Shown: positions 2,136 through 23,832 of the stretch, one piece after another | How the letters are laid out: every line of letters begins with the position of its first letter | How positions within the stretch are numbered: the first letter of the stretch is position 1 | Source of the DNA: a virus | Direction: 5' to 3' (one strand) | Length of the DNA: 23,992 nucleotides | IMG/VR virus record: IMGVR_UViG_3300008120_000311 | Coordinates: 1-23,992 of that record | Made by a program: the position numbers and the translations under genes | Notes under the pieces: model-generated | What the model was told of the DNA's origin: nothing | Database searches by the model: none | The model's input: the letters and a program-made list of their open reading frames with translations, nothing else

Positions 2136-2146
2136 ATTGTTTTAGA

Positions 2147-3094: not shown

Positions 3095-3113
3095 AATTTT
3101 AAATTGTGTTTTT

Positions 3114-4496: not shown

Positions 4497-4531
4497 ATTG
4501 TATTTTTTCGTTCGTCTGTTTTATTAAATAT

Positions 4532-4984
4532 TCACTTGTTTAGGTCAAAGTTCAAATAATCAAAAGATAATTTTTGACCTGAAAAAATGTCAGTTAATTC
4601 TCGGAGAACGTCTTTTAAAAATGGTCGTACATCAACCGTATAACGAACTTTTGGCGGGAACAATTTTCCATCAAAATTTCTATGACAAATTGTCTGCTCT
4701 CCAATTTTTACATAAATGTTGAACTCTTCCTTGTCATCGGTGAACGATGTGTCCATAATTGCGGGGTCTGCTAAAATAGCATCTCGGTTGTCCATCATGT
4801 AAACAACTGTCTTCATTTTAAGATTGTACTCAAGTTCTTCTTTAAGTCGTTTAACAAAATCGTATAACTCCAAAGAATTTTTTGCTTTCGGGTTATACCC
4901 TCGAACATTAAAGAATCTTTGGACAACAATGTTGTCGTTCAACGTAAGTAAGAATTCCATTTTGGTGCTGTCTTGCTCTTTCAT
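4532..4984 (-). CDS. Conserved protein of unknown function in the replication cluster (150 aa)
   Basis: I do not recognise a functional domain. The 150-aa soluble protein has no signal peptide or membrane segment. Its N-terminal part (FLLTLNDNIVVQRFFNVRGY, residues 11-30) resembles from memory a family of hypothetical proteins in marine T4-like phages that begin with a LNDNIIxQRxFN-type motif. The C-terminal third carries FPPKVRYTVDVRPFLKDVL (109-127). It starts 3 nt after the exonuclease stop, and the helicase gene follows after 35 nt, so it sits between two replication enzymes and is probably co-expressed with them. A replication accessory role, such as helicase loading, is possible from position only; it does not resemble gp59 or UvsY. 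Confidence 0.85.
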   Translation of the reverse strand: MKEQDSTKMEFLLTLNDNIVVQRFFNVRGYNPKAKNSLELYDFVKRLKEELEYNLKMKTVVYMMDNRDAILADPAIMDTSFTDDKEEFNIYVKIGEQTICHRNFDGKLFPPKVRYTVDVRPFLKDVLRELTDIFSGQKLSFDYLNFDLNK

Positions 4985-4987
4985 AAT

Positions 4988-5989: not shown

Positions 5990-6018
5990 ATCTGTGATTT
6001 AAAGGGTGAAACAATATA

Positions 6019-7020: not shown

Positions 7021-7237
7021 AATGTTTTGCGTAAAATTCTTTTATGGTTACAAGTTTATCTGACGCGTTTGCAAGTTTCTCGACGAAATTATCCATCTCT
7101 TCCAAATGTTGTGGGTGTTCACCAATCCCTACAGCATTTTCCATATAAACCATTAATGTTGCCTCAGCCTCAGCAACTTCACTCTCGTATTTCAATACAA
7201 GAGATTCAAACATTCTTTTTCCAATTCTATTTTGCAT
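7010..7237 (-). CDS. Small conserved protein of unknown function upstream of uvsX (75 aa)
   Basis: The 75-aa acidic, mostly helical protein contains MENAVGIGEHPQHLEEMDNF (residues 31-50). From memory, small proteins with a NPVGIGEHPD-type core flanked by helices occur near replication genes in cyanophages and other marine T4-like phages; their function is unknown. No membrane segment or known domain is visible. Its 3' end overlaps uvsX by 11 nt, and the gene is the first after the gp32 terminator, so it leads the replication operon. A recombination accessory role is guilt by association; it does not look like UvsY, which is larger. Confidence 0.85.
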   Translation of the reverse strand: MQNRIGKRMFESLVLKYESEVAEAEATLMVYMENAVGIGEHPQHLEEMDNFVEKLANASDKLVTIKEFYAKHYGN

Positions 7238-7260
7238 TTGTTGTTTTTTTCTTGATTAAA

Positions 7261-7300
7261 TAAAAAAGCATGGACACTGTGTTAATATAAGTGTCCATGC
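7261..7300 (-). terminator. Rho-independent terminator after the gp32-like gene
   Basis: On the minus strand an 11-bp perfect stem, GCATGGACACT (7290-7300) with its complement (7268-7278), encloses an 11-nt loop and is followed by TTTTTTA (7261-7267). It begins 9 nt past the gp32 stop codon. I see no obvious new promoter between it and the 75-aa gene, so it may act as a partial terminator that makes gp32 transcripts more abundant than those of the downstream uvsX operon. Confidence 0.92.
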
Positions 7301-7309
7301 TCTGTTAAA

Positions 7310-8158
7310 TTAAAACGGTAATTCTGTGTCAATCTCGTCGTTAGCCTGTGGGTCAACAGACGGTGTAGATTTACCACCACCAATAGATGTTGTTGATTCG
7401 ATGTCGTTTGCGTAAACGTATCCACCTTTTTCAGAATCCCACTTCGGAGTTTCCCCACGAGCAATTGCCTCAAGGTAATCAACAGGTTTTTTGGAGTATA
7501 CGTCCATCCAAGTTAACTCATCACTAATCCAAGCGTCAGCCTGAGCTTTGTCTTCATGAACAGGAGCTGGGTCATCGTACATGATTGTAGAGATACTTGT
7601 GTACTCTTTACCCGCAGGTGTTTTAGATTTAGTCAATTCGATAACAAGGTCACGTCCTTTTTCAGGGTCAGTGATATCACCTTTGTTTCTCCAAATCGGA
7701 ATGATTTTATCCAAGATACCATCATTCTTATAGTTGTGTTTAAATCTCCAAAATTTAACACCATCAGCCTCGTTATCACGGTCGATAACTTTAACGATGT
7801 AAAACTTACGAGACTTGTATTGTTTTGCCAATTCTTTGTCTGATTCTTTACCCGTAGACATCAACTCTTCGTAAACCTCATTCAAAGGTGAACGCTCGTT
7901 GTCATTTTTTCCTGGGTCATAGAATTTGTTCCACTGACCACCAACTTGAATTTCGTGGTACCATGCTTCTTTGAATGGTGAAGAACCATCGTGTGTTGGG
8001 AGGATACGTACTCTACGTTGTCCTGATTTCTCTTTGTCAGAGAGGATACAAGCGAAATACTTTTTCATTCTTTCGTCTTGCGACATTTTACTTTGGGCCC
8101 CGCCCCCTTGTTGTGCTTTTTCGTACTGTGCCAATACGGCGTCTAATGAACTCATCAT
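7310..8158 (-). CDS. 32: Single-stranded DNA-binding protein, T4 gp32-like
   Basis: Coats ssDNA at forks and recombination intermediates and works with UvsX, the helicase and the polymerase. The 282-aa protein has the gp32 layout: a short N-terminal cooperativity segment (1-25), an OB-fold core that begins with RRVRILPTHDGSSPFKEAWY (48-67) and runs to about residue 225, and an acidic flexible tail. T4 gp32 is 301 aa. Two differences stand out. The His/Cys zinc cluster of T4 gp32 is absent: the only cysteine is Cys37, and the matching region reads YDPGKNDNERSPLNEVY. The last residues are DEIDTELPF, like the tip of bacterial SSB rather than the LLNDL-type end of T4. Start is ATGATG (8153-8158). 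It is a one-gene transcription unit between the promoter at 8189-8220 and the terminator at 7261-7300. Confidence 0.9.
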   Translation of the reverse strand: MMSSLDAVLAQYEKAQQGGGAQSKMSQDERMKKYFACILSDKEKSGQRRVRILPTHDGSSPFKEAWYHEIQVGGQWNKFYDPGKNDNERSPLNEVYEELMSTGKESDKELAKQYKSRKFYIVKVIDRDNEADGVKFWRFKHNYKNDGILDKIIPIWRNKGDITDPEKGRDLVIELTKSKTPAGKEYTSISTIMYDDPAPVHEDKAQADAWISDELTWMDVYSKKPVDYLEAIARGETPKWDSEKGGYVYANDIESTTSIGGGKSTPSVDPQANDEIDTELPF

Positions 8159-8188
8159 GTTTTATATATTTAAGTTTAATTTGTTCTA

Positions 8189-8220
8189 CAAATATAGTCT
8201 AGTTTTACCAGTTTGTCAAA
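8189..8220 (-). promoter_or_regulatory. Bacteroidota-type promoter for the gp32-like gene
   Basis: On the minus strand TTTG (8217-8220) is separated by exactly 20 nt from TATATTTG (8189-8196), fitting the Bacteroidota primary-sigma consensus TTTG-N19-21-TAnnTTTG. The same bases also contain TTGACA (8214-8219), 17 nt, then TATATT, close to a sigma70 consensus. About 30 nt remain to the ATG; this leader is nearly all A/T (one G, three C) with no Shine-Dalgarno. In T4, gp32 represses its own translation by binding an A/U-rich leader, so this leader could serve a similar purpose. Confidence 0.85.
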
Positions 8221-8249
8221 TAAAAAAAGGTCACCTTTTGGGTGACCTT
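8221..8249 (-). terminator. Rho-independent terminator ending the late structural block
   Basis: On the minus strand AAGGTCACC (8241-8249) pairs over 9 bp with GGTGACCTT (8227-8235) around a 5-nt loop, followed by a T tract at 8222-8226, which is 7 T when the A-T closing pairs are included. It lies 19 nt beyond the stop of the 234-aa gene and directly abuts the gp32 promoter, separating late transcription from the gp32 unit. Confidence 0.93.
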
Positions 8250-8268
8250 ACATTATTTGTTGTGTTTG

Positions 8269-8973
8269 TTATTTGTATTTGAACTCGTCCTCAAATCCGT
8301 TACCTTGGAAGGAATTCTTAATATCATTAACATTGATGTCAGTCACGTCATCAGGTGTTAAAACATAATCATTTTTTCCTGTTTTTTCCATCTCTTCTGA
8401 TTTGTCATCAAAAAATTGTGATAATTTTTGACTATAAGGATATGAATCATACGTTCTTAACTCTAATTTTTCTTGTGGAGTTTTTTCACGATACTTTTCG
8501 ATTTTGTTTTCAAGAGCGTTTAACTTATTCATAATTGAATCCATCTCACCTAATCTTGATTCCAATTTGTTTAATTGACCAAACAAATTATCAAAGTAAC
8601 TATCTTGTTTTGATTGAATATCTTTTTGAGCAGTAACCAATTCAGTTATATCTAATTCTTCAGAATCAGTTTCTTCTCCACCCTTTTCTTCTGAGTTACC
8701 CTCATCATCAATTTTTTCAACGTCAGGGTCATTCTCTACATCAATAGGTTCAGGAGTTGCACCCGCTTCAGGTGCTGGTGGAGCCGCCGCATCACCTGGA
8801 GGTGGTGGGGGAACTGCCGCAGCGTCTGCTGGTGGCGGTGGAGGTACTGCACCCGCATCAGGTGTAAGTGCAGCTAAATCATCAGGAGCTGGCTCAGCAG
8901 CTTGTTCTAAAATATATTTATTGATACTTCTGTATCTTTCAATTTCACTTAAAATTTTTCTGTCTATACTCAT
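8269..8973 (-). CDS. Pro/Ala-rich acidic coiled-coil protein, probable virion-associated (234 aa)
   Basis: No recognised domain. The layout is clear. A helical N-terminus (MSIDRKILSEIERYRSINKY, 1-20) is followed by a low-complexity Pro/Ala/Gly linker (about 25-75) with repeated VPPPPPADAAA / VPPPPPGDAAA units. Then come a very acidic stretch (about 78-110; Glu, Asp), a coiled-coil-like helix with heptads (about 112-165; NKLESRLGEMDSIMNKLNAL) and a charged tail. N-termini of the type EIxRxxxINKYIxEQ recur, as I remember, in structural proteins of large Bacteroidota phages. It is the last gene before the late terminator and starts 4 nt after the 74-aa gene. A tail or head accessory role is inferred only from position. 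Confidence 0.85.
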   Translation of the reverse strand: MSIDRKILSEIERYRSINKYILEQAAEPAPDDLAALTPDAGAVPPPPPADAAAVPPPPPGDAAAPPAPEAGATPEPIDVENDPDVEKIDDEGNSEEKGGEETDSEELDITELVTAQKDIQSKQDSYFDNLFGQLNKLESRLGEMDSIMNKLNALENKIEKYREKTPQEKLELRTYDSYPYSQKLSQFFDDKSEEMEKTGKNDYVLTPDDVTDINVNDIKNSFQGNGFEDEFKYK

Positions 8974-9235: not shown

Positions 9236-12200
9236 TTAAATTGCAAAGTCGAATTCGAACCATTGGGTAGCGTTTTCACCTTGGTTAGGTTGAACAACTT
9301 TTTGAGCAGTTAAACCAAACTTACATAATATTTTTGTAGTACCTGTCGGTATAGTAATATCTTGGTTATCAAACTCAAATAATATATCCTCATTGTCAAT
9401 TTGAAATTTAACCTCATTAATGAAATAACTATCCAAGTCATTTGTCAACGTACCTTGTCCTAAAACTACCTGAACGTATTGGTTATTTGACGTTGCACTC
9501 ATTCTTACAAACTGATAATCCATAGTAGTATATTGCTCAGTATATAGGAAATTCCAAGGAGACAACGCAGTATTTCCTGTTGGGTAATATTCAGGATTTA
9601 TTATAACAGTTAAAATTTCATTACCGCTATCGATACTTCCATTCATAACAACAGGTCCTGTTTGTTGTGGGTTTGTGTTACTATTTGGCGGTACTGATGG
9701 AGCAACTGTTGGTGGTGCTGCAGAAACTTGTTGTGGATTATAAGTAAATGTTGTTGTAGTTGAACCGCTACCATAAACCCCACCTAATGTTATTACATTG
9801 TTTTGCGGTACCGTAGTATTACTAAACGGAACAATAACAACTACGTTAGTGTCTCCGTTTATAGTAATACCTGTTGTTACCGTAACCCCGTTTACTGTAA
9901 CGGCTGTTACTGAATCTAAATCATTACCAACAATATTAACAATTGTACCTGTAACACCCGTTAATGGTGTGAATGATGTGATAGATGGTGGTAAACAAAC
10001 TACTGGTGGTGTTGATGTAGTATTTTGATTATTTGTTGTACCTGTACCTCCACTAACAATTTGTTGCTCTTGAGCAGTGTTAGCTTGTACAACTGTGTTA
10101 GTCGCATCACCATTTAATTGTACTCTATTGGCTGATTTTAAACCATCTTTAACTGTTTCAAATAATGTTGTATACTCATTTTGATTTTCGTCAAAATATT
10201 CTGGTGTTATATTAGGATTGTCACTTGTTGCAGGTGTCCAATAACAAACATAATATTTTGGTAATCCTAATGGTGCATTACCATTTTCACCAAATAAAAT
10301 ACGTCTAACATTTGGTGTTAGTCTCGCAATCATGAAATCCAAAAATTTATCAAGATTAGTAAAGTTAGCAATTGGTGTTGGGTTGTTTGTTGAATTTGAA
10401 TTTGATACCGATACACACGAAGCTTGTTTTTGTATAAAGTACTGAGTACTTGGTCCCCAATACACGCTTAACTCAACATTAGCAAAGTTATTATTATAAC
10501 CATAAAACTTGTCCTGATTAAACGTTTTAATGTAACACATTAAGTAAATAAGGACTTGTAAATTCGCATCACTTGTTTTCGCAACAATTGCATCGGCTAA
10601 TTCTTGTGGTGTCAATCCAGTTGTGATAGATTCAACAAAATCTCCCCAAGTAACGTAGTTAGTATTTAACGATAATGTACAACTATTAACCGCGGCAGCA
10701 GTATTTTCACCTATTTGTGAAAGAAGCGCAGTTTTATTAATATTTGTAATTGGTTTGTTTGGTACGTTATCTTTTTTCTTTAATATCGCAGTTTCAATCT
10801 GTGTTAATAAGTTTTGATTTAAACTTTGTAATAAATTATCAATAGATGGTAAATCAAAAATACCTTGTCTAATACCCGTAAAATCTGTTTGGAATTGTCC
10901 AGGTTGAATACTATGATTAACTTCAGTAATCAAATAAGGTCCGTTAAACATTGGAACGTGTCTTAAATTGAAATACATTGTTGGTTGTAATAATGCATTA
11001 CCTAAAGAAATTACACGACATTGATAACTCCTTTTCTTATATAAATTATATAAACCAACGTTTTGAGTTGCAACATTCTTACCATTAGCTTGGTTAACCA
11101 TATCGATTTGAGTCTGTATGGACTCTGAGGTTGCCTTACCACTATCCATTGAAACCTCAAACGAGTAGAATATATTTTGATTTCTAGTTCCTATATCAAC
11201 ATTAAACCCAACACATTTATTTGATACCGCCCAATCTTTTTTACCAATCTGATTTTCAATTAATGGATTTTCAGATGCTCTTCGTAATTCAAATGAATCA
11301 TCTCTAAACCTTGAATTGCCCTTAGGTAAATCTAATTGAGCCGACGGTAGTCCCGCATAAAAACAAACAACTTTTGGACTTGATTTTCTATAATCAACAT
11401 CTAAGAATGTTCCCCACATATTATCAGCAAACTCTAAAGAACCTTCAGAATTTTGTGAAAGAGTTGTTCCATCCGCATCTTGAACATTATAAAAATTAAC
11501 ATATGCTGGTAATGGCATCACATTAAATTTATTCTTAATAAGAATTCCACTTAAAAATGTGAATACACTCATTTCCATATTGAACGACGACTCTTCAAAG
11601 GTCTTATTCCCTAACAGAGTATCTTTTAGTGAGAAGATATCAACTAATAAAGTATCACCAATGTTTCTTGAAGCTCTGTCCAAGAATAAGAAATCTTCAA
11701 ATAACGTCTTACTCGAATAATCACCACCCGCAACCCATTTGTCATTTAAAGCTTTGAATACCTCATAATTTTCAACTTTGGACTGTTGTCCATCAATAAC
11801 ACTTTGTATTTTCTTTTCAGGTAACTCTTGTTGATTAGGTAAGGCAAGTCTAACTCCCGCTAATACTTGATTTATAAATAAATTTTGGATTGCAGTTGTG
11901 CCGTTCAAATAAAGTTGTATTCTAGATTTAAACTCATCGCTTGTTAAAGTTGGTGTTAAAAGTTTTTGTGTTGCATATTGTTTTATTAATTGTGAACATA
12001 AAACAATGTTGTCAACATTAAACTCAATATTATTATCAATAAAAAAATCCGTAATATACGAACCTTGATTAGTATATCTCAAGTTTTGTATTGTTGAAAA
12101 TCCAATCTCGGTTTCTAACGCCAACCATTCAGTAGGATACTGAGCCTTTGATTGTGCTAAAGTTATTGTTCCGTTACTCGAAGGTAATGTGTTGTTAACA

Positions 12201-15200
12201 TATGTACCAAAATTAATTGGGTCAACCACAACATTTGGTCCGTTGTTTGACGCTATAAATGAATCAACAACTCTTCTCTTATAATTTGCAGGATTACCAT
12301 ACTTTAACATTACATCATACTCTAAAAATGATTTGATTGTATTTGAGAATGACGTTAATTGTGTATTACCTAATGTGTTAAAATATTCTGAATTTGATAA
12401 TCCTGTATTTGCATTTACCGTCATTAAACTGGAAAACAAATACTGAAAGTTTTTAAATACCGCAGTATTATCAACAGGTGACTCACCAATAGGTACACCT
12501 ACTTGTGGACCTAAATCAATATCCGCAATTGGTTTAGAGAAATTTAAAAACTCTTGTTCAAACTTGTCTAAAATACTTTTATCAAAAACTGAAAATATTT
12601 CTTCAATGTTTGAATACTCATCAGTAATCAATAATTTAAAGGCCGATTGTTTTGTGTTACCTGTTAATATTTTATTAACATATTTTTCAGGACTTGGTTT
12701 AACTACTTGTGTGTTATCAAAATAACCGTAATTTGGTGCCGACCACAACATTCTTACCGAACCATTATAAATTGATGGATTATTTAAAAACACCGTACCT
12801 TGAACATTATTCACCAACAACTCAGCATTTATTTGATTTATTGGTGAACCAAACGAAGGTATTATAAAATATTTACCACTTGTAGTATTTTGGTTTGGTC
12901 TACAATTACCTGATAAACTATTTAAATCCATAACAGTATCAGGTAAAATTACTGACCAAGTTTCAATTGTTGTTATTTTTGGAACACCACTTAATACATC
13001 AATAACTGAATTAGTTGGGTTAATGTTTGAATCTCTAAAATTATAGACTTTCATACCACCACTAATACTTGTTTGGATTTCTTCATCGGTGTAATCAACA
13101 TATAAGTCATATCCATTATAGAATACGTTAAAGTCGTTAATCACTTTAGGATAAAATCCTGTTTGCATTTTTGGGTTGTTTACGGATGTCACATTTTGTA
13201 ATGTAATTTCTTTAACACCATCAAACTCAAATTTATATGTTTTTGTATCAGAACTAGTAATTGGGTCAAAATTAACTTTGTAATCAAAATTAGTCCAAGC
13301 ACTATCCAAGAAATCTACACCAGTTGTTTTGTAGGTTTTATACCTATACCAAATAGAACCCATCTTTAAAACCCAAGCGTATGGCATTTTATGAATTGCA
13401 CCAAACTTTTTAAAACAAGATGCAATGTAATCTAAATCATTTGGAGCATCTAATGTTTTATACTTTTCTTTTAAAGAAGCTAATGGTAATGAATTAATAA
13501 ACAAATAAGCCGCTTGAACATACGGGTATTTATCTTTCTTTCTCCAATTATAAACACCATTCTGAATAGCATTTACCATGTATGGTGTGTTTAACATGGT
13601 AGTTGTTGTTTCAGTCGTAATATTATTGATTGTCCTTGTGTGGTAAACATACCCTTCAGTTGGTACGAACTTATTAGGGTCTTTTCTTGTATCTAAAAAT
13701 GTTGTTAAATTAGTTTGAACAATTTCAGAAGTTGGGTCTGTGACTGTTAAATAAGAAAAATTTGTTACAGGTCTATTTGTTGTATAATTATAAACACTAT
13801 TAAAATTTGAAATAACGTTACGTTCTTTAAACACTTGTAATACTTGAGTTGTATTATATACGTTATTATTTGTGTTTGCATCACTTTGAGCCATATTTGC
13901 AGAAACCCAAGTTGGGTCTGTAAATGGGTAAGTATCAATAATTAATGGGTCGTTTGATGCGTTTTTAACTAATTGTTCTAACGCTTCATACTTAGCAGGG
14001 TTTTGAGGTTCTTTACCTAAATCATTTGTACTAAGAATGTTAAACGAATTTTCAGTTAAATTTCTAATATATGGTGTAACATAAAAATCCCTAATGAATT
14101 CTTGATATGCTCTACCTGTACCTTGGTTAGAAAAATTAAATAAAGTTTCTTCGTAATTTTGGGCAGTAATGTTATAGTTCTTAAGTTTTAAAGTTAAGAA
14201 AGGAGAGCTAATCCCTAAACTAGTAACAATGTTAGTTGTTTCCGAACTCAAAACTAAATCAGTTAATTGGTTCAACTGATTTGCATTTGCTCGGATATAA
14301 CCTGAATAATTAGCGGTTAAGAATTGTCTTTCCCAAATTTCGTAAAAGAATTTAACCTCCTCTTTATTAACATAAGCAATACCATTTGATGGATATTCTA
14401 TTGCATTTATATTAATAATATTTGTTGTTGCTTGACTATCAGTTGGAACTTGAGCTATTGGAGGATTAAACCTTTGAGTGATACCTCTCATATACTCTTC
14501 AACAAATTCAACTTCAGGCCATTTATCATAAAGATAACCTTTAGTAATATCAACAACTGAAGGGTCTGCAATATATCTTAATTGAAAACGTCCTTTCTTA
14601 TCATCAGGTGTTTCAACAAAAAATTGTGGCCAAGGATAAACAGGAACTTGACTTGTAGATAACCCTTGATTTTGATTTGAAGCTTCCTGTGACTTTTTAA
14701 CATTTTCAACTGTATCAGTACCAGGTGCTGATGAAGGATTATCTAAAATCGCTAATTGTCTAACAGGGTCATATTTAACATTCCAAGCATTTGTATGGAC
14801 CTCATCCATTAAACGAATAAATGCTTCTGCTGAAGCCATAATAACCGCACAAACGTTTCTTACCGTCGGTTTAAATCCAAGACCAATTTTAGAGTCTTCT
14901 ATTTTTCTTGAGAAATCCGCAGTTAATATAGTTTCGTAATCTGTTAATTTTCTATTCGCTTCCGCTTCAAGTTGATAAATTAAATTTTCAAATCTTGGTT
15001 CAACTTGATTTGTTACCGTATTTGATTTAAAAATAAAAAATGGTGTCTTAACTAAATTAACAGAACTTGATTGGTTTGAAGACGCCACGGGATTTAAACT
15101 TACCTCAAGAATTGGTGTATATAGTTTTTCCAAATAAACTTTAGTTGTTTGCGTATCAGCGGTAGTTGGCGCTAATATACCTGTTTGTTGAATTGTTGTT

Positions 15201-16603
15201 TTAGTTAAGTCAATATCATCTAAATTAACATTAATCAACATAGTATTATACGTTATTGGATTTTTAATTGGGGACTTACCCGTTGTTCCAAGAGTTGGGT
15301 TTTCCGCCAATAACGTATTAAATTGAGAAGTATATCCACTTAATAGTGTTCGGGCCGCTTGTTGTCTTACAGGGTCTTTTAATATTTCATCTTTAAATGC
15401 ATAAACATAAGTACCATTTTTTAAAACAATTGGTCTTAAATTCATATATGTATTATACCAAGACGTATCAGAACCATAGATTTCGTTATAATAGTTTTTT
15501 AAAGTTTCTTTATAAGCCCTAATATTAGTGAGTGGCTCTACATCAACTTTAGTGTACGAATCAATAATAGTTTTTTCAAAATTTTCCAATGCATTCATGA
15601 ATTGAGCAAATGTCATTTCAGGAAAATCAGGGTCAAGTAATCCTTTTGCTTTATACTCACTATAAACCTCAATTACTTTTTGGTAACCTTTTTCACTAAC
15701 AATTTGAGTAACCACATCATTTGAGCTATTACTCGCCTGACCCGCAATCGTATTACTTTGTTTTGTGGTTGACTCAATATTTTTGTTTCCACCCTCGGCG
15801 GACGTTGGCGATTTAGAAATATCAAATCGTGTACTGTACATGTGTGGTGCCGCCAACAAATGTCCCATAGATATTTCATTAAGTATATTGAACTTATATC
15901 CAACAAACTCTAACTGAATTTGGTAGTTCCCACTAAATGTGTTGAATGATGCATGGAATGTTTTTAAGTTTAACTGATACTTAATTGCCTGTCCGTAAAA
16001 CCCTTTAAGTGTTAAATAAAATGGTGGGTACGGTAAATTAAAAAATGCAGCATAAGGTGAATTATCACCTAATTCAAACAAGGCTTTACCTTGAATATCT
16101 TCAAGAAGAATTGTAACTTGTGGTACAAATGAACTATTAGTTCTTACGTTAATTGATGTTATCCCTAATAATCCATTATCGGTAGATACATTTCCAGGAT
16201 TATTGACCGTAACTCTATCATATGGTTTTGTTCCATCATTTGGTGCAATAGTTTCAATCCTTGTTTGATTATTACCCAAACCATTTCGAGTACCTTTACC
16301 AGTTAATTCATCATAATAACCTGAAGTTAAATGTGTATTTTCTGTCGGTCTTAAAAAATTAATTTTAGCAACAGAAATAACTCTAGCCCTATCTTCAGGA
16401 CTTCCACCAACAGCTAACTTAGTTCTTGGTAATACTTCAGCCTCAAGGTTGGCAAACATAACCATATTTTCATGGTCAACCAATCTTTCACTAATATTAC
16501 CAAACGCATCAATAGTTTTATTTGGGTCAACAACAATAATGTTATTGTAATCAAATTCCACTAATACGTTTCCACTGTTGTCTCCTGGTCTGTTACCTGC
16601 CAT
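9236..16603 (-). CDS. Giant baseplate hub-type structural protein (2455 aa)
   Basis: Probable baseplate/hub component of the contractile tail. N-terminal region: SSFVPQVTILLEDIQGKALF and SPYAAFFNLPYPPFYLTLKG (about 157-206) belong to a block I associate with baseplate proteins of large T4-like phages. Near residues 1884-1915, MFNGPYLITEVNHSIQPGQF and then TGIRQ resemble the hub/late-control type of fold end. Residues about 1981-2103 form a possible hydrolase-like domain (YGYNNNFANV, then NFTNLDKFLDFM). Residues about 2204-2289 are an IPT/TIG Ig-like domain (PPSITSFTPLTGVTGTIVNI). About 2300-2455 is a beta-rich tail of unknown type. It starts inside the gp53-like gene (11-nt overlap); T4 gene 53 also precedes hub gene 5. 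It is far longer than any T4 baseplate protein, so it may combine functions that T4 splits among gp27, gp5 and others. Confidence 0.85.
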   Translation of the reverse strand: MAGNRPGDNSGNVLVEFDYNNIIVVDPNKTIDAFGNISERLVDHENMVMFANLEAEVLPRTKLAVGGSPEDRARVISVAKINFLRPTENTHLTSGYYDELTGKGTRNGLGNNQTRIETIAPNDGTKPYDRVTVNNPGNVSTDNGLLGITSINVRTNSSFVPQVTILLEDIQGKALFELGDNSPYAAFFNLPYPPFYLTLKGFYGQAIKYQLNLKTFHASFNTFSGNYQIQLEFVGYKFNILNEISMGHLLAAPHMYSTRFDISKSPTSAEGGNKNIESTTKQSNTIAGQASNSSNDVVTQIVSEKGYQKVIEVYSEYKAKGLLDPDFPEMTFAQFMNALENFEKTIIDSYTKVDVEPLTNIRAYKETLKNYYNEIYGSDTSWYNTYMNLRPIVLKNGTYVYAFKDEILKDPVRQQAARTLLSGYTSQFNTLLAENPTLGTTGKSPIKNPITYNTMLINVNLDDIDLTKTTIQQTGILAPTTADTQTTKVYLEKLYTPILEVSLNPVASSNQSSSVNLVKTPFFIFKSNTVTNQVEPRFENLIYQLEAEANRKLTDYETILTADFSRKIEDSKIGLGFKPTVRNVCAVIMASAEAFIRLMDEVHTNAWNVKYDPVRQLAILDNPSSAPGTDTVENVKKSQEASNQNQGLSTSQVPVYPWPQFFVETPDDKKGRFQLRYIADPSVVDITKGYLYDKWPEVEFVEEYMRGITQRFNPPIAQVPTDSQATTNIININAIEYPSNGIAYVNKEEVKFFYEIWERQFLTANYSGYIRANANQLNQLTDLVLSSETTNIVTSLGISSPFLTLKLKNYNITAQNYEETLFNFSNQGTGRAYQEFIRDFYVTPYIRNLTENSFNILSTNDLGKEPQNPAKYEALEQLVKNASNDPLIIDTYPFTDPTWVSANMAQSDANTNNNVYNTTQVLQVFKERNVISNFNSVYNYTTNRPVTNFSYLTVTDPTSEIVQTNLTTFLDTRKDPNKFVPTEGYVYHTRTINNITTETTTTMLNTPYMVNAIQNGVYNWRKKDKYPYVQAAYLFINSLPLASLKEKYKTLDAPNDLDYIASCFKKFGAIHKMPYAWVLKMGSIWYRYKTYKTTGVDFLDSAWTNFDYKVNFDPITSSDTKTYKFEFDGVKEITLQNVTSVNNPKMQTGFYPKVINDFNVFYNGYDLYVDYTDEEIQTSISGGMKVYNFRDSNINPTNSVIDVLSGVPKITTIETWSVILPDTVMDLNSLSGNCRPNQNTTSGKYFIIPSFGSPINQINAELLVNNVQGTVFLNNPSIYNGSVRMLWSAPNYGYFDNTQVVKPSPEKYVNKILTGNTKQSAFKLLITDEYSNIEEIFSVFDKSILDKFEQEFLNFSKPIADIDLGPQVGVPIGESPVDNTAVFKNFQYLFSSLMTVNANTGLSNSEYFNTLGNTQLTSFSNTIKSFLEYDVMLKYGNPANYKRRVVDSFIASNNGPNVVVDPINFGTYVNNTLPSSNGTITLAQSKAQYPTEWLALETEIGFSTIQNLRYTNQGSYITDFFIDNNIEFNVDNIVLCSQLIKQYATQKLLTPTLTSDEFKSRIQLYLNGTTAIQNLFINQVLAGVRLALPNQQELPEKKIQSVIDGQQSKVENYEVFKALNDKWVAGGDYSSKTLFEDFLFLDRASRNIGDTLLVDIFSLKDTLLGNKTFEESSFNMEMSVFTFLSGILIKNKFNVMPLPAYVNFYNVQDADGTTLSQNSEGSLEFADNMWGTFLDVDYRKSSPKVVCFYAGLPSAQLDLPKGNSRFRDDSFELRRASENPLIENQIGKKDWAVSNKCVGFNVDIGTRNQNIFYSFEVSMDSGKATSESIQTQIDMVNQANGKNVATQNVGLYNLYKKRSYQCRVISLGNALLQPTMYFNLRHVPMFNGPYLITEVNHSIQPGQFQTDFTGIRQGIFDLPSIDNLLQSLNQNLLTQIETAILKKKDNVPNKPITNINKTALLSQIGENTAAAVNSCTLSLNTNYVTWGDFVESITTGLTPQELADAIVAKTSDANLQVLIYLMCYIKTFNQDKFYGYNNNFANVELSVYWGPSTQYFIQKQASCVSVSNSNSTNNPTPIANFTNLDKFLDFMIARLTPNVRRILFGENGNAPLGLPKYYVCYWTPATSDNPNITPEYFDENQNEYTTLFETVKDGLKSANRVQLNGDATNTVVQANTAQEQQIVSGGTGTTNNQNTTSTPPVVCLPPSITSFTPLTGVTGTIVNIVGNDLDSVTAVTVNGVTVTTGITINGDTNVVVIVPFSNTTVPQNNVITLGGVYGSGSTTTTFTYNPQQVSAAPPTVAPSVPPNSNTNPQQTGPVVMNGSIDSGNEILTVIINPEYYPTGNTALSPWNFLYTEQYTTMDYQFVRMSATSNNQYVQVVLGQGTLTNDLDSYFINEVKFQIDNEDILFEFDNQDITIPTGTTKILCKFGLTAQKVVQPNQGENATQWFEFDFAI
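9736..9993 (-). other. IPT/TIG domain coding segment in the giant hub protein
   Basis: Encodes about residues 2204-2289. PPSITSFTPLTGVTGTIVNI, then a NDLDSVTAVTVNGV motif and a final TTTTFTYNP strand match the IPT/TIG pattern (PxIxSxxPxxGxxGxxVxIxGxxF). Such domains in phage tail proteins often form projecting or carbohydrate-contacting Ig-like modules. Confidence 0.85.
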
Positions 16604-16916
16604 AATAATAGAAATAATTTTCTAAAGCCGCTTTATAGTCTTGTAATGAAGGTAGTAGTGGATAAGGAATAATCAATACCGCTCCGTCGAATATATTATT
16701 TTCAAGACCTCCAAATTGAGGGTTCGCTTGTAAAATTAACCAACCAAAATATGGTGAATTATAATATTCCTGAGATACTACATCTAATCGACTACGAGCA
16801 ACTTTATATATGTAAGACTTATCAGTTGGTTTTTGGGGTAATTGCACAAAAGGAACAATGGTTTGTTCACCATTAATTAAAAAATCACTATATCTATTCC
16901 AATATTGGTACGCCAT
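16593..16916 (-). CDS. Baseplate wedge protein, gp53-like with LysM-type fold (107 aa)
   Basis: Small baseplate protein that probably clamps wedges or links to the tube/hub. Residues about 35-90 show the LysM-like pattern of T4 gp53 and P2 gpX-type proteins: YKVARSRLDVVSQEYYNSPY, then GWLILQANPQ and a closing VLIIPYP. T4 gp53 is about 196 aa, so this is a short version. Its ATG overlaps the stop of the 1677-aa gene (TAATG at 16914-16918), and its end overlaps the start of the giant hub gene by 11 nt. This tight coupling of three baseplate genes suggests balanced translation. Confidence 0.78.
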   Translation of the reverse strand: MAYQYWNRYSDFLINGEQTIVPFVQLPQKPTDKSYIYKVARSRLDVVSQEYYNSPYFGWLILQANPQFGGLENNIFDGAVLIIPYPLLPSLQDYKAALENYFYYYGR

Positions 16917-19900
16917 TAGTTAAATTTTGCCTTTGAGATGAATACCTCACTAGATACCTCATCATTCCATGTTTTATTATTTGTGTTTTGGTTTTCAGTT
17001 GCACCTAAACCTTTAATCAACGCTATCTGTCCATCAGTATTCGCGTTCTCAGTCGTATATGTAAATAACCTTTTTTTCTTTAAAGTATATGGGGTAAACT
17101 TTAAGAAATTTTGTAACGTTTGTGTTTGCATGTGTTTAATAAACTCCTTAGTTATATCATTCTCATTCACAAATGCAGGTTTAGCAACATTAACCCAATA
17201 TTCGTTGAATCGTGCGGTTAAATTATTTCCGTTTTCAGCACTTCCAATAATACCTTGATTACTAATTATATTACTAATCATAGCATTTCTAAAGGTTTCA
17301 TATTTTTTAGTGTCTACAACATCATCAGAAATAATCATATAAACCCTTCTAAACGGTACGTCAATAAAATTCGAAAAATTACTAAATGGAATAAATACTT
17401 TTTGACCTTCAGGTAATTTATAGTTTGGTGGGAAAACCAAAGTTCCTGTATATGATGTACCCCCAAATGTAAACGGAACATTTCCGTTTGTAATTTTATT
17501 AAATTCAGTAATACCACTCTTAATTGCTAATATATCGTTAGCCAATTCAATTAAAGTATCATTCGCCCCTTGAGAACTTGGGTCGACAGTAGTGGTTGGT
17601 AATATTGTATATGATGTTACATTACCTAATTTGTCTTGTTTACCATCAGTACCTGAAGGAGCTGGATATCCTGACGGATAATAAAGAACCGTATTTGCCC
17701 TTGCAATATATCCAACATATACTTGTTGAACATTTGTCATGTCTTGAGTAATCGTTGTTATTGCGTTTTGATATGTTCCGCTTTTTGTTTTAACAAAGTT
17801 TGTATAATTTTCTTTAAGTTGTCTTATAACTTTATTTGAAAAATTATATTCAGGTTTACTAATAAATTTAATAAATGGGTCGTTTTCATTTTTAATGTCT
17901 TTCAATAATTCTTCAGTAATCACATTAATTCTACTTTCAGTGTTGTTTGGTTTACCAAACATGTTTACAGGATTATTTTTGTCCGCTAAAAACGCTCCGT
18001 CAGTATAATTTCTTTCTAACATCCATTGTTGACGTAACGCATTATTGTATTGGTTAACACTTTCACTAATTTTATTAACTACTGTTGTAAAATACGTTTG
18101 AGTTTGTTCCGAGAATTTATCCATAAACGTTTCATAACTAATACTACCTGTTTGTCCTGTAGAACTAATACTATTAGTTAATATAGTACCTATTGTATTT
18201 TCATTAGATAAACCATTATTTGGTTGGGCATTATTAATCATTGGTGGAACAACACCAGATAACGCTGCAAATTGTAAGAAATCTTTATCTAATACTTGAT
18301 AACTTGTATCAGTTACATCCGCCCTATCATCGTAAATTTCAGTGTTAGCATAATAATTAAATGTCAAAGCATTTTGCAATCTATCCACAGACTCTTTAAG
18401 TCCACTACCACCAACAAAGTTAAATTGCATCGTAACTTTAGCAATCATAGGTTGAACCCCAATACCTTCAGGGTTAATATCTAAATTTTCATAAGCCAAA
18501 CTTAAACTTGTTGGAATTATTTTTGTATTATAAAAATCACCAATTCTTAATATAAGAACTGGAGGTGCCCCAAATGCAGTGTTAGTCGCATTATTATACT
18601 CTAACACATCTTTACCACCAATTGATTTAACAACAGGTATTGTATCACCTGGTCTCATACATTGTTGTAAGAATGTTAATCTTGTATTTAATCCCTCAGG
18701 CGTTGTTGAGTGAAATGCTGGTTGGAAAAACTTCAATTTATCTTTAAGGTTGTCGAATACCATTGGTGTTTCCTCTTTGATAACCTCAAAGTAATCACAT
18801 TCTGATAATAAAGCTCTTAGTACTCTTTTTGTAATGTTGTCTCTAACCACCGCAACATCTTCAACTGTTGTTTGTGTCTCAGTTGTTGTTACAACATTAC
18901 CCGTAACAACTGTGGTTCTTTTAGGTGGTAGTATAGGTTCAGGTTGTTCTAAATTAGATGTTATTTGGGATATATACGCTCTTCGACACGACATTGCGGG
19001 TGTAGTGAAAATGTCTTTTGCACCTACTTGAGTATCCCCTCCACTAGCTTCACCATTTTCATCCGAACAATTAACAGTTTCTCCAGGTGAAAATTCGTAC
19101 GGTGCTGTTGTAGTTTTAGACACTAAAGGTGTTGATTGGGCGATTTCACCAAATCCATTTCCAGCAACAACAGATAATCTTTGTTCTTGAATATATTTTT
19201 TAGTTGCAGGGTTTTCAGCAAAAAACTTAATTACCGATTCAATTCTTCTGGCAGATAATGATTTATTATATTCAACCGTCTGAGGTGCAGAACAACTTGA
19301 ATCAATAACCACCTTAATTTTTAAAGTTGGGTTGGTATTCATTTGTTTTGCCAAGTCAATCGCCATTTCTTGAGCCACTTGATAGTTTGGCGTTACCACC
19401 GTATCAAAAAATCTACCTAATTGTTCACCATTTGATTTACTTTCGTATAACGCAACATTTTCAGGACTTGTATATCTAGTATATTCTTGAGAATAATTTG
19501 GTGATGTACCTCTCTTTGGATAATCATTACCAAAATAAAATCCAATTTGTTGGTACTTTTTCATAAAGTAATCCGTACTACCTTCACCAGCCCCACCTGA
19601 ACCTGATACACCACCACCGCTATTATTTGCCGCGGCTTCAGGAAGTCCTGGTGGAATGGTATTAATCGCATATTGCATCTGCTCTCTTGTAAGTTCTTTT
19701 GATGTAATAGCTTGTTGGATTTGGAACAAATCGTTTGGATTGATTGTGTAATATTTTTTGGCCAACTCATATAAGTCATATTTTCTACATCCCGCAAAGA
19801 ATGAATCCAAAATACTATCAATTCTTGGTTTGTTAGTTTCGTTAGCCAAAACTTTATTCACAATAACATTTAATACTGATGGGTGGTCAACTACAATATC

Positions 19901-21949
19901 CCAAGTTAAACTACCGCTTCTACTTGTATTTTTGTATGTATAGATTGGTTCAGGTCTTCCAATAAAATCATTTGGATTCCAGTTTGCTTGAACCGATTCA
20001 TTGAATGTTAAATTATATGGTGGGAACCACATAACTCTACCACCGTTAGGTCCTCGTTCACAAACCGCCAAGTCTGAAACAGAATAACCTGGTGTGTTAG
20101 ATGTTGCCCAAGCCAAGTTCTCTAATGAGAACATATATTTCTTAGCATAAGCGTTATTCATAGACCCAATAATATTTGTTGAGTCTTGTCCACCTTCTTG
20201 TTTGTTTGGTGCAATATTAAGATTATACGTTTTATCTAAAACAGACCAAGCGAATCTTCTACCTTCAGTTGTAATACCATCGGTCTTTTGTAGGTCGTTG
20301 TATTGTAAATAAGGAATGTCCTTGGCAAACACACGACAATATTCAGTTCCAACTTCTTGCCCAATCGCACCAACATAACTTAACACTCTTGAACCTTTAG
20401 TCATTTCTTTATATCCATCATTGAATACTTTACTGACTTGGTCAATCGCATTACCCGCATGTTTTAAACGGTTACCACCTTGTGGTTGGCTATCAATAAT
20501 TCTTTGGGTATCGTCAAGGATTGAACCTTCTCTAAATGTTCTTTCTGTCGACTCGGTTGAGTTGTATGATGACGGTTTAAAGTCCTCATCTTCGTTTGTA
20601 ATCTCACCACCAATACCAACTTTCTTACCAGCGTTACCTTTGTATTTTGGAGATACCCATGTGAATCCACCTTCAATACCTCCACCATTACTGTAAGTCG
20701 GTCCATTAGCACCAAGTTTAATTTCTTTACTTGGTCCTTCATATAACTGAGCCAACTCTTCAGGACCATAAACAGGTGATTGTTGTTCATAACCAAACGC
20801 ATTGTTTGGAAGTGCCCCTGATGGAGAAAATATTCTTGACGGGTCAGATGTTGTAGAACCAATATAATAGTTGGCGTTGTTTGTGTTGGTACCAACAAGA
20901 GCCCCACCCAATCTATCAATTAAAGTTCTGTCGTAACTTGGCTTATACTTGTTAAAGTTTATGTTCTTAAACAATAACGATTTTTGACCTTGACCTGTAT
21001 TTTCAAAAAATATTTGAGAACCAGTCTTACCCGCACCTAAAAGATTACTAATAAGTTTACCACCCGCAGCTAAAGGATTACCCAATAATGCTTGTTGAAT
21101 TGTAGTTGGTTGTGGTGGGTTAATACTTGGGTCCCAATATGAACCAGGGATGGTCGAAAATGGTACCTGACTACCCGCTAAACTTAATGCAAATTGAGCA
21201 GCAGCACCCAACGGGTTCGATGGTACCGTAATGTTGTAGTTAGGTTCAATTAATGGAACATTACCTGTTAAGATATTAACAAGGTTTGTACTACTATTAA
21301 CATTTAAGATGTTTGCCCTACCTAAAGTTTCTCTAATGATTGCTCTACCAATTCGGTCTTCAAACTCTTTCTTTAAAGTTTTTGCACCCAAACGAGCAAT
21401 AAATGAGTCGGAACTTAATAAACCATTACTACCAAGTGGGTCAGGATTTAATAATATCGATACTGAACGATAAGACGATGGATTGAATGTTGGGTATGGT
21501 TGACCGTTTGGTGGTCTATCTTGGTCAGGTCTAACAGTTTCTAAAGTTACTACCGCCTCACCAGCATCAAAGTTATTATTACTTGAATAAGCGTTTAAAG
21601 GTCTCCATAGTTGGGTTGCTGCGAATCCTGAATCAACAATGTGAGCGTCTTGTTGTCCAGGTCCATACTCACCTTGGTTAGAAGTCGTATTTAAATTACC
21701 TGTTAAGTCAGGAGCAAATTCATATCCTCCCTCATTACCCCATCTATTAAGTGGATATTGTTTGTCGGCAAAAAATGTTGTGTCTATTAAGAAATCGGGT
21801 GAATCAACAGGTGTTAAATCTTGTTGAATTACTTCGTATGTAATTGGCGGGGTCGCAGGACTTGGTGATTTAGCATAAGGAACTAAATTACGAGTCATCA
21901 GTTTTTTTCTGAATCCTTCGGTGCTAATATAATCTAACGGACTACCCAT
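16916..21949 (-). CDS. Large baseplate / tail-tube-initiator-like protein with OmpA-like domain (1677 aa)
   Basis: Probable baseplate or tube-cap component. Two segments resemble tail-tube-initiator proteins of large phages: residues about 640-705 (MWFPPYNLTFNESVQ, then GRPEPIYTYKNTSRSGSLTW) and about 1126-1190 (PPVLILRIGDFYNTK, NPEGIGVQPMIAKVTMQFNF, then GGSGL). Between them, residues about 845-936 form an OmpA-like domain (VEYNKSLSARRIESVIKFF, then VVAGNGFGE). The N-terminal third is rich in Gly/Asn/Ser/Pro; the C-terminal 450 residues include helical stretches. It directly follows the tape measure gene, as T4 genes 48 and 54 follow 29, which supports the tube-initiator reading. T4 gp48 and gp54 are only about 320-365 aa, so this is a much enlarged relative or a fusion. 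A candidate promoter box lies at 21956-21971. Confidence 0.83.
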   Translation of the reverse strand: MGSPLDYISTEGFRKKLMTRNLVPYAKSPSPATPPITYEVIQQDLTPVDSPDFLIDTTFFADKQYPLNRWGNEGGYEFAPDLTGNLNTTSNQGEYGPGQQDAHIVDSGFAATQLWRPLNAYSSNNNFDAGEAVVTLETVRPDQDRPPNGQPYPTFNPSSYRSVSILLNPDPLGSNGLLSSDSFIARLGAKTLKKEFEDRIGRAIIRETLGRANILNVNSSTNLVNILTGNVPLIEPNYNITVPSNPLGAAAQFALSLAGSQVPFSTIPGSYWDPSINPPQPTTIQQALLGNPLAAGGKLISNLLGAGKTGSQIFFENTGQGQKSLLFKNINFNKYKPSYDRTLIDRLGGALVGTNTNNANYYIGSTTSDPSRIFSPSGALPNNAFGYEQQSPVYGPEELAQLYEGPSKEIKLGANGPTYSNGGGIEGGFTWVSPKYKGNAGKKVGIGGEITNEDEDFKPSSYNSTESTERTFREGSILDDTQRIIDSQPQGGNRLKHAGNAIDQVSKVFNDGYKEMTKGSRVLSYVGAIGQEVGTEYCRVFAKDIPYLQYNDLQKTDGITTEGRRFAWSVLDKTYNLNIAPNKQEGGQDSTNIIGSMNNAYAKKYMFSLENLAWATSNTPGYSVSDLAVCERGPNGGRVMWFPPYNLTFNESVQANWNPNDFIGRPEPIYTYKNTSRSGSLTWDIVVDHPSVLNVIVNKVLANETNKPRIDSILDSFFAGCRKYDLYELAKKYYTINPNDLFQIQQAITSKELTREQMQYAINTIPPGLPEAAANNSGGGVSGSGGAGEGSTDYFMKKYQQIGFYFGNDYPKRGTSPNYSQEYTRYTSPENVALYESKSNGEQLGRFFDTVVTPNYQVAQEMAIDLAKQMNTNPTLKIKVVIDSSCSAPQTVEYNKSLSARRIESVIKFFAENPATKKYIQEQRLSVVAGNGFGEIAQSTPLVSKTTTAPYEFSPGETVNCSDENGEASGGDTQVGAKDIFTTPAMSCRRAYISQITSNLEQPEPILPPKRTTVVTGNVVTTTETQTTVEDVAVVRDNITKRVLRALLSECDYFEVIKEETPMVFDNLKDKLKFFQPAFHSTTPEGLNTRLTFLQQCMRPGDTIPVVKSIGGKDVLEYNNATNTAFGAPPVLILRIGDFYNTKIIPTSLSLAYENLDINPEGIGVQPMIAKVTMQFNFVGGSGLKESVDRLQNALTFNYYANTEIYDDRADVTDTSYQVLDKDFLQFAALSGVVPPMINNAQPNNGLSNENTIGTILTNSISSTGQTGSISYETFMDKFSEQTQTYFTTVVNKISESVNQYNNALRQQWMLERNYTDGAFLADKNNPVNMFGKPNNTESRINVITEELLKDIKNENDPFIKFISKPEYNFSNKVIRQLKENYTNFVKTKSGTYQNAITTITQDMTNVQQVYVGYIARANTVLYYPSGYPAPSGTDGKQDKLGNVTSYTILPTTTVDPSSQGANDTLIELANDILAIKSGITEFNKITNGNVPFTFGGTSYTGTLVFPPNYKLPEGQKVFIPFSNFSNFIDVPFRRVYMIISDDVVDTKKYETFRNAMISNIISNQGIIGSAENGNNLTARFNEYWVNVAKPAFVNENDITKEFIKHMQTQTLQNFLKFTPYTLKKKRLFTYTTENANTDGQIALIKGLGATENQNTNNKTWNDEVSSEVFISKAKFN
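19140..19415 (-). other. OmpA-like (peptidoglycan-associated fold) domain coding segment
   Basis: Encodes about residues 845-936 of the 1677-aa protein. It has the OmpA C-terminal order: a strand (LKIKVVIDSS), then VEYNKSLSARRIESVIKFF (the YNxxLSxRRxxSV signature), then RLSVVAGNGFGE (the vxGxGE strand). The second Arg of the RR pair, which contacts diaminopimelate in E. coli OmpA, is kept. The Asp expected just before the YN is not at its usual position. Confidence 0.8.
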
Positions 21950-21993: not shown

Positions 21994-23832
21994 TTAATAA
22001 GTAGGAACACCCGCACCTTTTGTATCTTTTCCAAGAGTTGCAACATATTGTTTAAATCCTTCACTATTGAAGATTTGAGTTAATTGTTGTTGTGTTAACC
22101 CATTTGCTCCAACAGGACCGTCTATAGTTATTTTAATATTACCAGTTACGTTGTTTGTTACATTAGTTGTTTTTGGTTGAGTTGTTTCTATTTGTTTTGA
22201 AACTTGATTAGACACCCTTTCACCTAAAACATTTGATTCACTTAAAGGTTTTGCCTGAGCCTTTTGTTTAACCGCTTCGGCAGACGCATTAATAGGTTTA
22301 CCAAGAGCAGATAATGTTTCATTAGCAAACGCTCTAAACTCTTTTTCAATACCACTACTTCCTTTAATATTTTTAGCACTGGCTTCTAAAATGTCTCTAA
22401 GAGCTTTCGCACCACTTTCGCCCAATGAATTCGCACCACTAATAACACTATTTTCTAATTGTTCAATTTTTTTAGTGAAATCAGCGTCAGATATTTTACC
22501 AGCATCTTTTGCGGTAAATAATGATTTCATACTATCAATTGCGTTTGTAACACTTTCAGTAACTTTAGCGCTTTCGGGAATAGCTTTATAAACATCTTTT
22601 GATAATTCTCTTAAAATTCTATCCGCACCATAAATATTTTCACGTACTACAGGTGTTGCAGCAACCCCATACGCAACTTTAGCAGCAATTGCCTTAACAT
22701 TTGCCGCCATATCTTCAGTGATAGTTAACTGACTAGTTTGAATGTCTTCCAAAGTTTTTGGTCGATTTTCTTCTCTTTCTTTCAACGCATCAAATTGTTC
22801 TTGCGTTAACTCACTTAATTTTTTTTGTTCTATAATACCTGTTTGGTCGTTTTTAAGTTGGACAACATATTGACCATCCTTCATTGTTGCCATATTTGCC
22901 AACAATTGTTTGTCCTCTTCTTTTTCAAATTGAATTTCGGGACTAATTGCCGATAATCGTTTATCCAAATCGGCAGCGGCTATTGCAGCTTTACTTAATT
23001 CTGCCGCTGACAGTCCAGTTTCTTTTTCAAGTTCTCTAAGTGTTAGTACACCTTGAGGATTTATTTTAAATGATTGTGTTTTTTCATCAAATTCTGTAAA
23101 TTGTTTTGCGGCCTTAATAATACTATCTTGTAAACCCGATGGGTCATTAATTGATTGGTTCATTAGAGCAAACGGGTCAGCTAAATTACCAATAGAAACA
23201 CCCAATCTTTGAAATCCAGCGGCGGTTTCAACAGCTCCCTCAGGGTCTAAAACTTTATCAGCTAAATTAAAGGTCTGTTGCATGTCAAACCTTAACATTG
23301 AAGCTTGGGCCGCCATTTTTGTTAACCCTTGGATACCACCTTCAAACTGATATCTATTCATTTTGGACATGTTTGTTTCAACATCGTCCATTACTATATC
23401 GGCATTCAATCCAAGACTTTGAATATATTGAATTGAATTTTCAAGATTTGTACCTATTTGAGATGTTTCAATACCTACTTCAGCAAATCGTTCAACTAAA
23501 GTACCTACATCCGAACCTAATATTTTAGACGCCGCATATAATTTTGAAACTTGTTCTTCGGTAGCAATTACATTTCTTTTTGACCCTTCAGCAATTCCCT
23601 CCATTGTGGCGGCCGCGGATGCCGCATCACCACCTAAACGTATTACTCCCGCAGCAGCTCTTGAAATGGCATCGCCCAATTCATCCATTCGGGTTCTACC
23701 CATCAAAAATGATTTGTTCAGTCTTTCGGATAAATCAAACATGCTATCCATAGCTTTGGCAGCTTGTTCTAAAGGTGACGCAAGACTCTCAACACTTTTC
23801 TTTAATTTATCTATGTCTTCTTGTGATGGCAT
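21994..23832 (-). CDS. Tail tape measure protein (612 aa)
   Basis: Extended helical protein that sets tail length and is expelled during DNA injection. Residues 1-120 are almost wholly Ala/Glu/Leu-rich helix (SLASPLEQAAKAMDSMFDLS). A conserved-looking core follows (about 165-270; LGVSIGNLADPFALMNQSIN), then long charged helices, a Thr/Asn-rich hinge (about 550-570) and a short C-terminal domain (GLTQQQLTQIFNSEGFKQYV). The length is close to T4 gp29 (590 aa); at about 1.5 angstrom per residue it predicts a tail of roughly 90 nm, ordinary for a T4-like myovirus. It lies directly before the tube-initiator-like gene, as gene 29 does before 48 in T4. I see no clear membrane segment. The start at 23832 has an A-rich leader and a candidate promoter box. 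Confidence 0.8.
   Translation of the reverse strand: MPSQEDIDKLKKSVESLASPLEQAAKAMDSMFDLSERLNKSFLMGRTRMDELGDAISRAAAGVIRLGGDAASAAATMEGIAEGSKRNVIATEEQVSKLYAASKILGSDVGTLVERFAEVGIETSQIGTNLENSIQYIQSLGLNADIVMDDVETNMSKMNRYQFEGGIQGLTKMAAQASMLRFDMQQTFNLADKVLDPEGAVETAAGFQRLGVSIGNLADPFALMNQSINDPSGLQDSIIKAAKQFTEFDEKTQSFKINPQGVLTLRELEKETGLSAAELSKAAIAAADLDKRLSAISPEIQFEKEEDKQLLANMATMKDGQYVVQLKNDQTGIIEQKKLSELTQEQFDALKEREENRPKTLEDIQTSQLTITEDMAANVKAIAAKVAYGVAATPVVRENIYGADRILRELSKDVYKAIPESAKVTESVTNAIDSMKSLFTAKDAGKISDADFTKKIEQLENSVISGANSLGESGAKALRDILEASAKNIKGSSGIEKEFRAFANETLSALGKPINASAEAVKQKAQAKPLSESNVLGERVSNQVSKQIETTQPKTTNVTNNVTGNIKITIDGPVGANGLTQQQLTQIFNSEGFKQYVATLGKDTKGAGVPTY

Follow-up and report, generated by a model that had tools for sequence, protein, structure and literature searches.

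A predicted OmpA/Pal-fold domain with a conserved Ser-containing pocket in a probable baseplate protein of uncultured phages

Introduction

Contractile phages must pass peptidoglycan, and the tips known so far carry enzymes or LysM modules. In phage Mu, the tube initiator gp43 contains a LysM module, a peptidoglycan-binding fold that is considered structural there (PMC11915804, in excerpt). The OmpA fold serves as a wall anchor on another contractile machine, the type VI secretion system, in which TagL belongs to the membrane complex and fixes the apparatus to the cell that houses it (PMC8253398, in excerpt). The pocket residues of TagL are Asp486, Asn494, Leu497 and Arg501; mutants in Asn494, Leu497 or Arg501 no longer bound the wall, and binding further requires Ser498 and Ala502 (PMC8253398, in excerpt). 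In PorE the corresponding residues are Asp576, Asn584, residue 587 and Arg591, and contacts run through both the main chain and the side chain of the Asp (PMC7192894, in excerpt). In the OmpA of A. baumannii (AbOmpA), Asp271 and Arg286 contact DAP (PMC5974059, in excerpt). Judged by titles and abstract openings, no paper listed by the literature searches describes an OmpA domain in a phage baseplate; an excerpt of PMC8705779 states that Leptospira prophages did not yield the OmpA-like protein Loa22.

The window studied here is the whole stretch of viral DNA that was analysed (23,992 nucleotides; IMG/VR record IMGVR_UViG_3300008120_000311, positions 1 to 23,992). It encodes a large protein in which an earlier note, made from the sequence letters, had seen an OmpA-like domain. 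The predicted domain resembles the C-terminal OmpA_C-like domain of PorE in fold (6top_B, Z 9.4, rmsd 3.7, 136 aligned) and in the spacing of the pocket Tyr, Asn, Ile/Leu and Arg (PMC7192894, in excerpt), but it lies inside a tail protein and has Ser where PorE, a periplasmic lipoprotein, has Asp. It aligns with the C-terminal domain of AbOmpA over the whole domain, whereas the two share 14% identity and Asp271 is replaced by Ser. Unlike TagL, the phage domain would meet the target cell rather than the cell that houses the machine (PMC8253398, in excerpt). Mu gp43 is alike in that a fold known for peptidoglycan binding sits within a tube initiator, which the window protein probably is by position, but the fold is a different one (PMC11915804, in excerpt). 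Finally, the gp035 family of the Flavobacterium phage immuto shares with the window protein a homologous stretch of the conserved block that precedes the domain (block A), as well as the tail gene order, but immuto gp035 has 716 aa and no OmpA match.

Results

The domain is carried by a 1677-aa protein (16916..21949, minus strand), assigned to the baseplate core from its ORF and gene order; the full protein has no PHROG match at E <= 0.01. The Pfam OmpA profile PF00691 aligns to residues 865-931 with 16.1 bits (E 0.015) in the full protein, 19.8 bits (E 0.001) in the domain alone and 21.4 bits (E 5.1e-6) when the window record is searched alone. The match expected in the earlier note was thus found, though at 16.1 to 21.4 bits the window protein stays below the curated cut-off of 27.2 bits, which none of 16 records exceeds. 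A PF00691 match at E <= 0.1 occurs in 31 of 40 aligned family members, window included (best 2.9e-6), and a chance match is unlikely because so many relatives match too.

An AlphaFold2 model of residues 785-1032 (mean pLDDT 83, pTM 0.79) is confident and places strands and helices in OmpA order, with the beta-alpha-beta-alpha-beta fold and a last antiparallel strand. In a longer model (490-1235), confidence is mainly confined to 792-999, with a dip at 970-977, and Foldseek returned 414 matches for it, two of them at E <= 0.001. VIA-align, a second look at chains picked by Foldseek in which rows within 1 Z count as tied, gave Z >= 8 to 43 of the 999 chains compared with the domain. Its top rows were AbOmpA 3td3 (Z 9.7, rmsd 3.3, 120/120 residues) and 3td5, which holds a peptidoglycan peptide (Z 9.7, rmsd 3.1, 119/119 residues). 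Among the 50 matches listed by each program, titles are mostly OmpA, Pal, YfiB, PorE, MotB and TagL, and a few rows are titled as Dot/Icm or 'LPHT ring' chains. The relatives' PF00691 matches, AlphaFold2 and VIA-align together bear out the earlier reading of an OmpA-fold domain inside a large tail or baseplate protein. On the strength of the model, the domain almost certainly has the OmpA fold. It is a divergent OmpA-like variant and not a canonical PF00691 member, because it falls below the Pfam cut-off and lacks the pocket Asp.

Profile matches and the predicted structure place the domain at residues 792-999 (18953..19576, minus strand). The interval given earlier, 19140-19415, lies inside it but stops short of both ends, reaching from helix 1 to strand 3. 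Flanking that interval are strand 1, GFYFGNDYP (803-811; 19517..19543, minus strand; Y805, F806, N808 and P811 in 117/117 rows and in all 65 non-redundant relatives), and strand 4, AMSCRRAYI (985-993; 18971..18997, minus strand; M986, C988 and R989 in 116/116). The end of strand 2 to helix 2, DSSCSAPQTVEYNKSLSARRIES (883-905; 19235..19303, minus strand), holds Ser887, Tyr894, Asn895, Leu898 and Arg902, and Gly934-Glu935 follows strand 3 (19145..19150, minus strand; 116/116). Two cysteines, residue 961 (19067-19069) between strands 3 and 4 and residue 988 (18986-18988) in strand 4, are invariant in 65/65 relatives.

PHROG searches of the domain region gave weak matches, most often to a 'membrane protein' family (7 of 37 members, best 0.0017). 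BFVD gave one match at E <= 0.001, A0A6J5L6C4_2 from an uncultured phage (2.2e-6), and, at E about 0.01, two proteins of viruses whose titles read OmpA-like or outer membrane protein; OmpA-like domains in other viral proteins thus exist in name.

Pocket positions were compared across 65 relatives less than 80% identical, taken from 116 rows covering the domain. Invariant positions number 16 of 206 and include Phe806 (equated by eye with PorE Phe541), Ser887, Asn895, Leu898 and Arg902, while Tyr894 is kept in 62/65. The pocket residues are enriched among invariant positions of the domain (Fisher test, p 8.5e-6), although they are also the family signature, and their conservation may be partly structural, a difference to which the test is blind. 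Of 138 sequences in a wider set, 136 carry the motif S-x7-N-x2-L-x3-R; one exception is cut short, and the other, the divergent relative L324, has by eye Arg for Asn and keeps the Ser. The NxxLSxxR motif is present as well, with Asn, Leu and Arg in 65/65. Its Ser, residue 899 at the TagL Ser498 position, is Ser in 93/116. Residue 903, at the TagL Ala502 position, is Ile in 93/116; most of the remainder have Val, Met or Leu there, and no sequence has Ala.

The Asp-8-Asn-3-Leu-4-Arg spacing of TagL and PorE is reproduced exactly by residues 887, 895, 898 and 902. The DAP-contacting Asp had been described as displaced; it is instead replaced in place, eight residues before the Asn, where the position of AbOmpA Asp271, PorE Asp576 and TagL Asp486 is Ser887 in 65/65. 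No conserved acidic residue occurs at 880-892 in the 65 relatives (maximum 34/65, at 883). This replacement need not mean that binding is lost, because the PorE Asp contributes main-chain contacts and because mutation of the Asn, Leu or Arg is what abolishes binding in TagL. By analogy, a Ser at this position could keep part of the contacts of the PorE Asp.

Three IMG/VR scans returned 362 relatives in one and at least 582 in the other two, and the best 80 of each were analysed. The resulting 235 loci gave 142 unique ORFs matching a part of the protein. Both core blocks are held by 131 of these, and the order block A, domain, block B was found in 131/131. In the scan from divergent members, no relative without the domain was found among the 80 best matches kept out of 582 or more, a sample in which rarer forms may be missed. 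Contigs of the group reach 321 kb. In nine of its 11 long records, a frame of 1674-1701 aa holds the record's one OmpA match at E <= 0.001; the other two do not reach that value. None of five comparison records (immuto, Mel-JY01, LR756508 and two immuto-like contigs) gave an OmpA match.

Across 76 relatives, mean pairwise identity is 40% in the domain, 82% in block A and 78% in block B. Domain distances correlate with those of blocks A and B (Spearman 0.70 and 0.52), as expected of a domain that is passed on mainly together with the core but changes quickly between variable linkers. No relative turned up when two peptide patterns were run against the genomes of 84,980 bacterial and archaeal species. 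Of two such genome scans, each with two patterns, the first matched 23 stretches and the second 13, none of them a relative; tblastn of the domain against plasmids returned nothing. Absence from bacterial and archaeal genomes would fit a lytic phage.

Block A (residues 490-745; 19715..20482, minus strand) has 141 of 251 positions (490-740) conserved, meaning kept in at least 95% of the 65 relatives, and block B (1041-1235; 18245..18829, minus strand) has 105 of 195. Between them and the domain lie a Gly/Ser-rich linker (746-791; 19577..19714, minus strand) with 2 of 54 positions (741-794) conserved and a Pro/Thr-rich linker (1000-1040; 18830..18952, minus strand) with 4 of 40 (1001-1040). Both flanking blocks are mostly at pLDDT < 50 in the 490-1235 model. 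A 42-column stretch of block A scores 52.9 against the immuto gp035 family, whereas 100 column shuffles reach at most 21.0 (0/100 reach the score). By hhalign, block A matches that family with probability 89 (E 2.3e-6), and the whole region matches the single immuto gp035 with probability 19 (E 0.0012). Residues 1138-1222 of block B are unconvincing alone, with 2 of 100 shuffles reaching their score, and the equivalence of block B to the immuto family is weak, consisting of order and a faint pattern. In 65/65 rows of the gp035 family, a loop of 13-15 residues joins the supposed halves where the insertion would lie.

The flanks had been called tube-initiator-like. Gene position and the distant block A match to the immuto family agree with this description, but no match came out when blocks A and B and the immuto family were compared by hhalign with T4 gp48, gp54, gp19, gp27, gp18, gp53, gp5, gp23 and the tube proteins, and sequence thus lends no support to T4-type homology of the flanks. 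The 1677-aa gene lies between genes at the tape-measure and hub positions, both of which are themselves named by position, and its product is probably, from this position, at tube-initiator level.

Upstream of the 1677-aa ORF is a 612-aa gene (21994..23832, minus strand), by position a probable tape measure, for which family searches gave no match naming its product. It is the counterpart of a 616-aa gene in a 321-kb relative (53% identity over 380 aa) that sits between a hub-like gene and the counterpart of the 1677-aa protein. Directly downstream is a 107-aa baseplate-wedge-like protein (16593..16916, minus strand; PHROG 7145 'baseplate wedge subunit', E 4.1e-4), and a 2455-aa protein (9236..16603, minus strand) is a hub by position, its place equalling that of immuto gp033. 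Neither Pfam nor PHROG matches the latter at E <= 0.01, and BLASTP shows no clear likeness between it and gp033. In the 321-kb relative, the gene order runs sheath (PHROG 23, 7.8e-55), 276-aa gene, tube (PHROG 4542, 1.1e-25), hub-like gene (PHROG 150, 4.3e-13; Pfam T4_baseplate, 1.2e-7), 616-aa gene, and then the counterpart of the 1677-aa protein. Immuto shares this tail order, in the last part of its linear record. Because of this gene order and the likeness of block A to the immuto family, we place the 1677-aa protein in the baseplate core with high confidence.

The window also holds a replication block (3-8158: NrdA, NrdB, DnaB-like helicase, exonuclease, UvsX-like and gp32-like) whose order is identical in immuto. 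It comes after the tail genes in the window and at the record start in immuto, where circular permutation of the record would be needed to bring the two blocks side by side. Beside and inside this block, ORFs at 8269-8973 and 4532-4984 (minus strand; 234 and 150 aa) are without credible family match. Several minor features of the tail genes were seen. By eye, the C-terminal end of the 2455-aa protein has an IPT/TIG-like stretch, and a YNNNF...YWG stretch in it may be a wall-hydrolase-like domain; Pfam searches on pieces of the protein returned nothing credible for the latter. The immuto gene at the hub position ends with a VanY peptidase. In another record, L258, a long tail sheath protein (5716-8937, minus strand, 1074 aa) has its sheath match at the C-terminal end. 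A candidate promoter motif, TAANNTTTG, occurs 22 times in the window against 14.0 expected and was dropped as a usable signal, the enrichment being too weak (4 of 100 shuffles reach 22).

Bacteroidota generally lack Shine-Dalgarno-like sites. Upstream of mechanically called ORFs, such sites number 0/11 in the window and 0/47 in the relative (0/58 together), compared with 4/108 in immuto, 1/12 in Mel-JY01 and 20/37 in T4; the value for Mel-JY01, a phage whose recorded source is Microcystis, comes close to these but is drawn from few ORFs. Together with the immuto synteny, this rarity suggests Bacteroidota hosts. Among NCBIfam models, PorE of type IX secretion is matched by most members (25/40, best 2.1e-6), followed by TraB (23/40), PA1041 (22/40) and Pal (15/40). 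All of these matches are far below the cut-offs (window domain against PorE, 22.1 bits for a cut-off of 600), and the Bacteroidota signal among the models is the strongest, yet not exclusive.

Discussion

A constant pocket in a fast-evolving domain speaks for ligand binding, and the simplest ligand is the wall peptide. We tentatively favour, over a structural use, the reading that the domain could bind host peptidoglycan with a retuned pocket, and consider this about as likely to be wrong as right. Once the sheath contracts and the tip crosses the outer membrane, copies of the domain would hold the stem peptide of the host peptidoglycan. Arg902 would bind the DAP carboxylate, the amino group would be contacted by Asn895 and Ser887 together with main-chain amides, and Phe806, Tyr894 and Leu898 would take the hydrophobic part. 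The grip may steady the tip or set it against the wall for penetration. Wall binding is supported by the invariance of the pocket and by the TagL mutants, since residues at the same spacing are those whose loss abolishes binding. Several observations count against it, namely the Ser at the Asp position in 65/65, the lack of Ala at the TagL Ala502 position, the structural view of the Mu LysM module, the flanking blocks without a confident fold, and the break of the motif in L324.

The same changes at the Asp and Ala502 positions are what one would expect if the domain were an OmpA fold that joins baseplate parts without binding the wall. LysM modules offer precedents for such a role, in Mu gp43, where the module is considered structural (PMC11915804, in excerpt), and in cyanobacterial Cis7, where it binds the tube to the baseplate (PMC8894136, in excerpt). 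A tightly packed interface, however, would hardly be bordered by variable linkers on both sides or diverge to 40% identity beside blocks at 82% and 78%, and it leaves the invariant ligand pocket to be accounted for; we regard a purely structural role as the main rival, possible but less likely. The uniform change of Asp to Ser with the rest of the pocket kept would also fit a pocket retuned to something else, such as a different wall chemistry, another zwitterionic group or a host envelope protein. This is unlikely in our estimation, as there is no candidate ligand and the Arg, Asn and Leu spacing is that used for DAP. A captured remnant without function would explain fast divergence, but is very improbable for a domain kept in 131/131 unique ORFs with both blocks and having 16 invariant positions.

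To return to peptidoglycan binding, its broadest form would be that the whole clade uses a Bacteroidota-type OmpA/PorE anchor as a latch of the injection tip, with the pocket retuned to the host wall by the change of Asp to Ser. This is conceivable and far from established; if true, the virion would grip peptidoglycan non-enzymatically during injection. The earlier remark that such a role is not described for T4 baseplates needs care, as a LysM peptidoglycan-binding module is described in Mu gp43 (PMC11915804, in excerpt). Among modules that contact the wall, an OmpA-fold domain kept throughout a large uncultured clade as part of the baseplate core would form a further type. The fold is common to the phage domain and to type VI and type IX secretion anchors, and the uniform Ser pocket eases a binding test.

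As to origin, the domain would have been taken from a Bacteroidota-type OmpA protein, probably before the phage clade diversified. Capture from Bacteroidota, as proposed in the earlier note, is somewhat favoured: the PorE matches, the immuto synteny and the missing Shine-Dalgarno signal are consistent with it, but TraB and PA1041 match nearly as many members. The form RRIxSV, once given as typical of Bacteroidota, does not hold for the aligned PorE chain 6top, which reads RRA. A tblastn search of 50,697 phage records gave a single match at E <= 1 (E 0.01), in the INPHARED record MT837475.1, which is titled 'Bacteriophage sp.' but by eye looks like a piece of a Bacteroidales chromosome, with LeuB-, Dxr- and RseP-like genes and a barrel OmpA.
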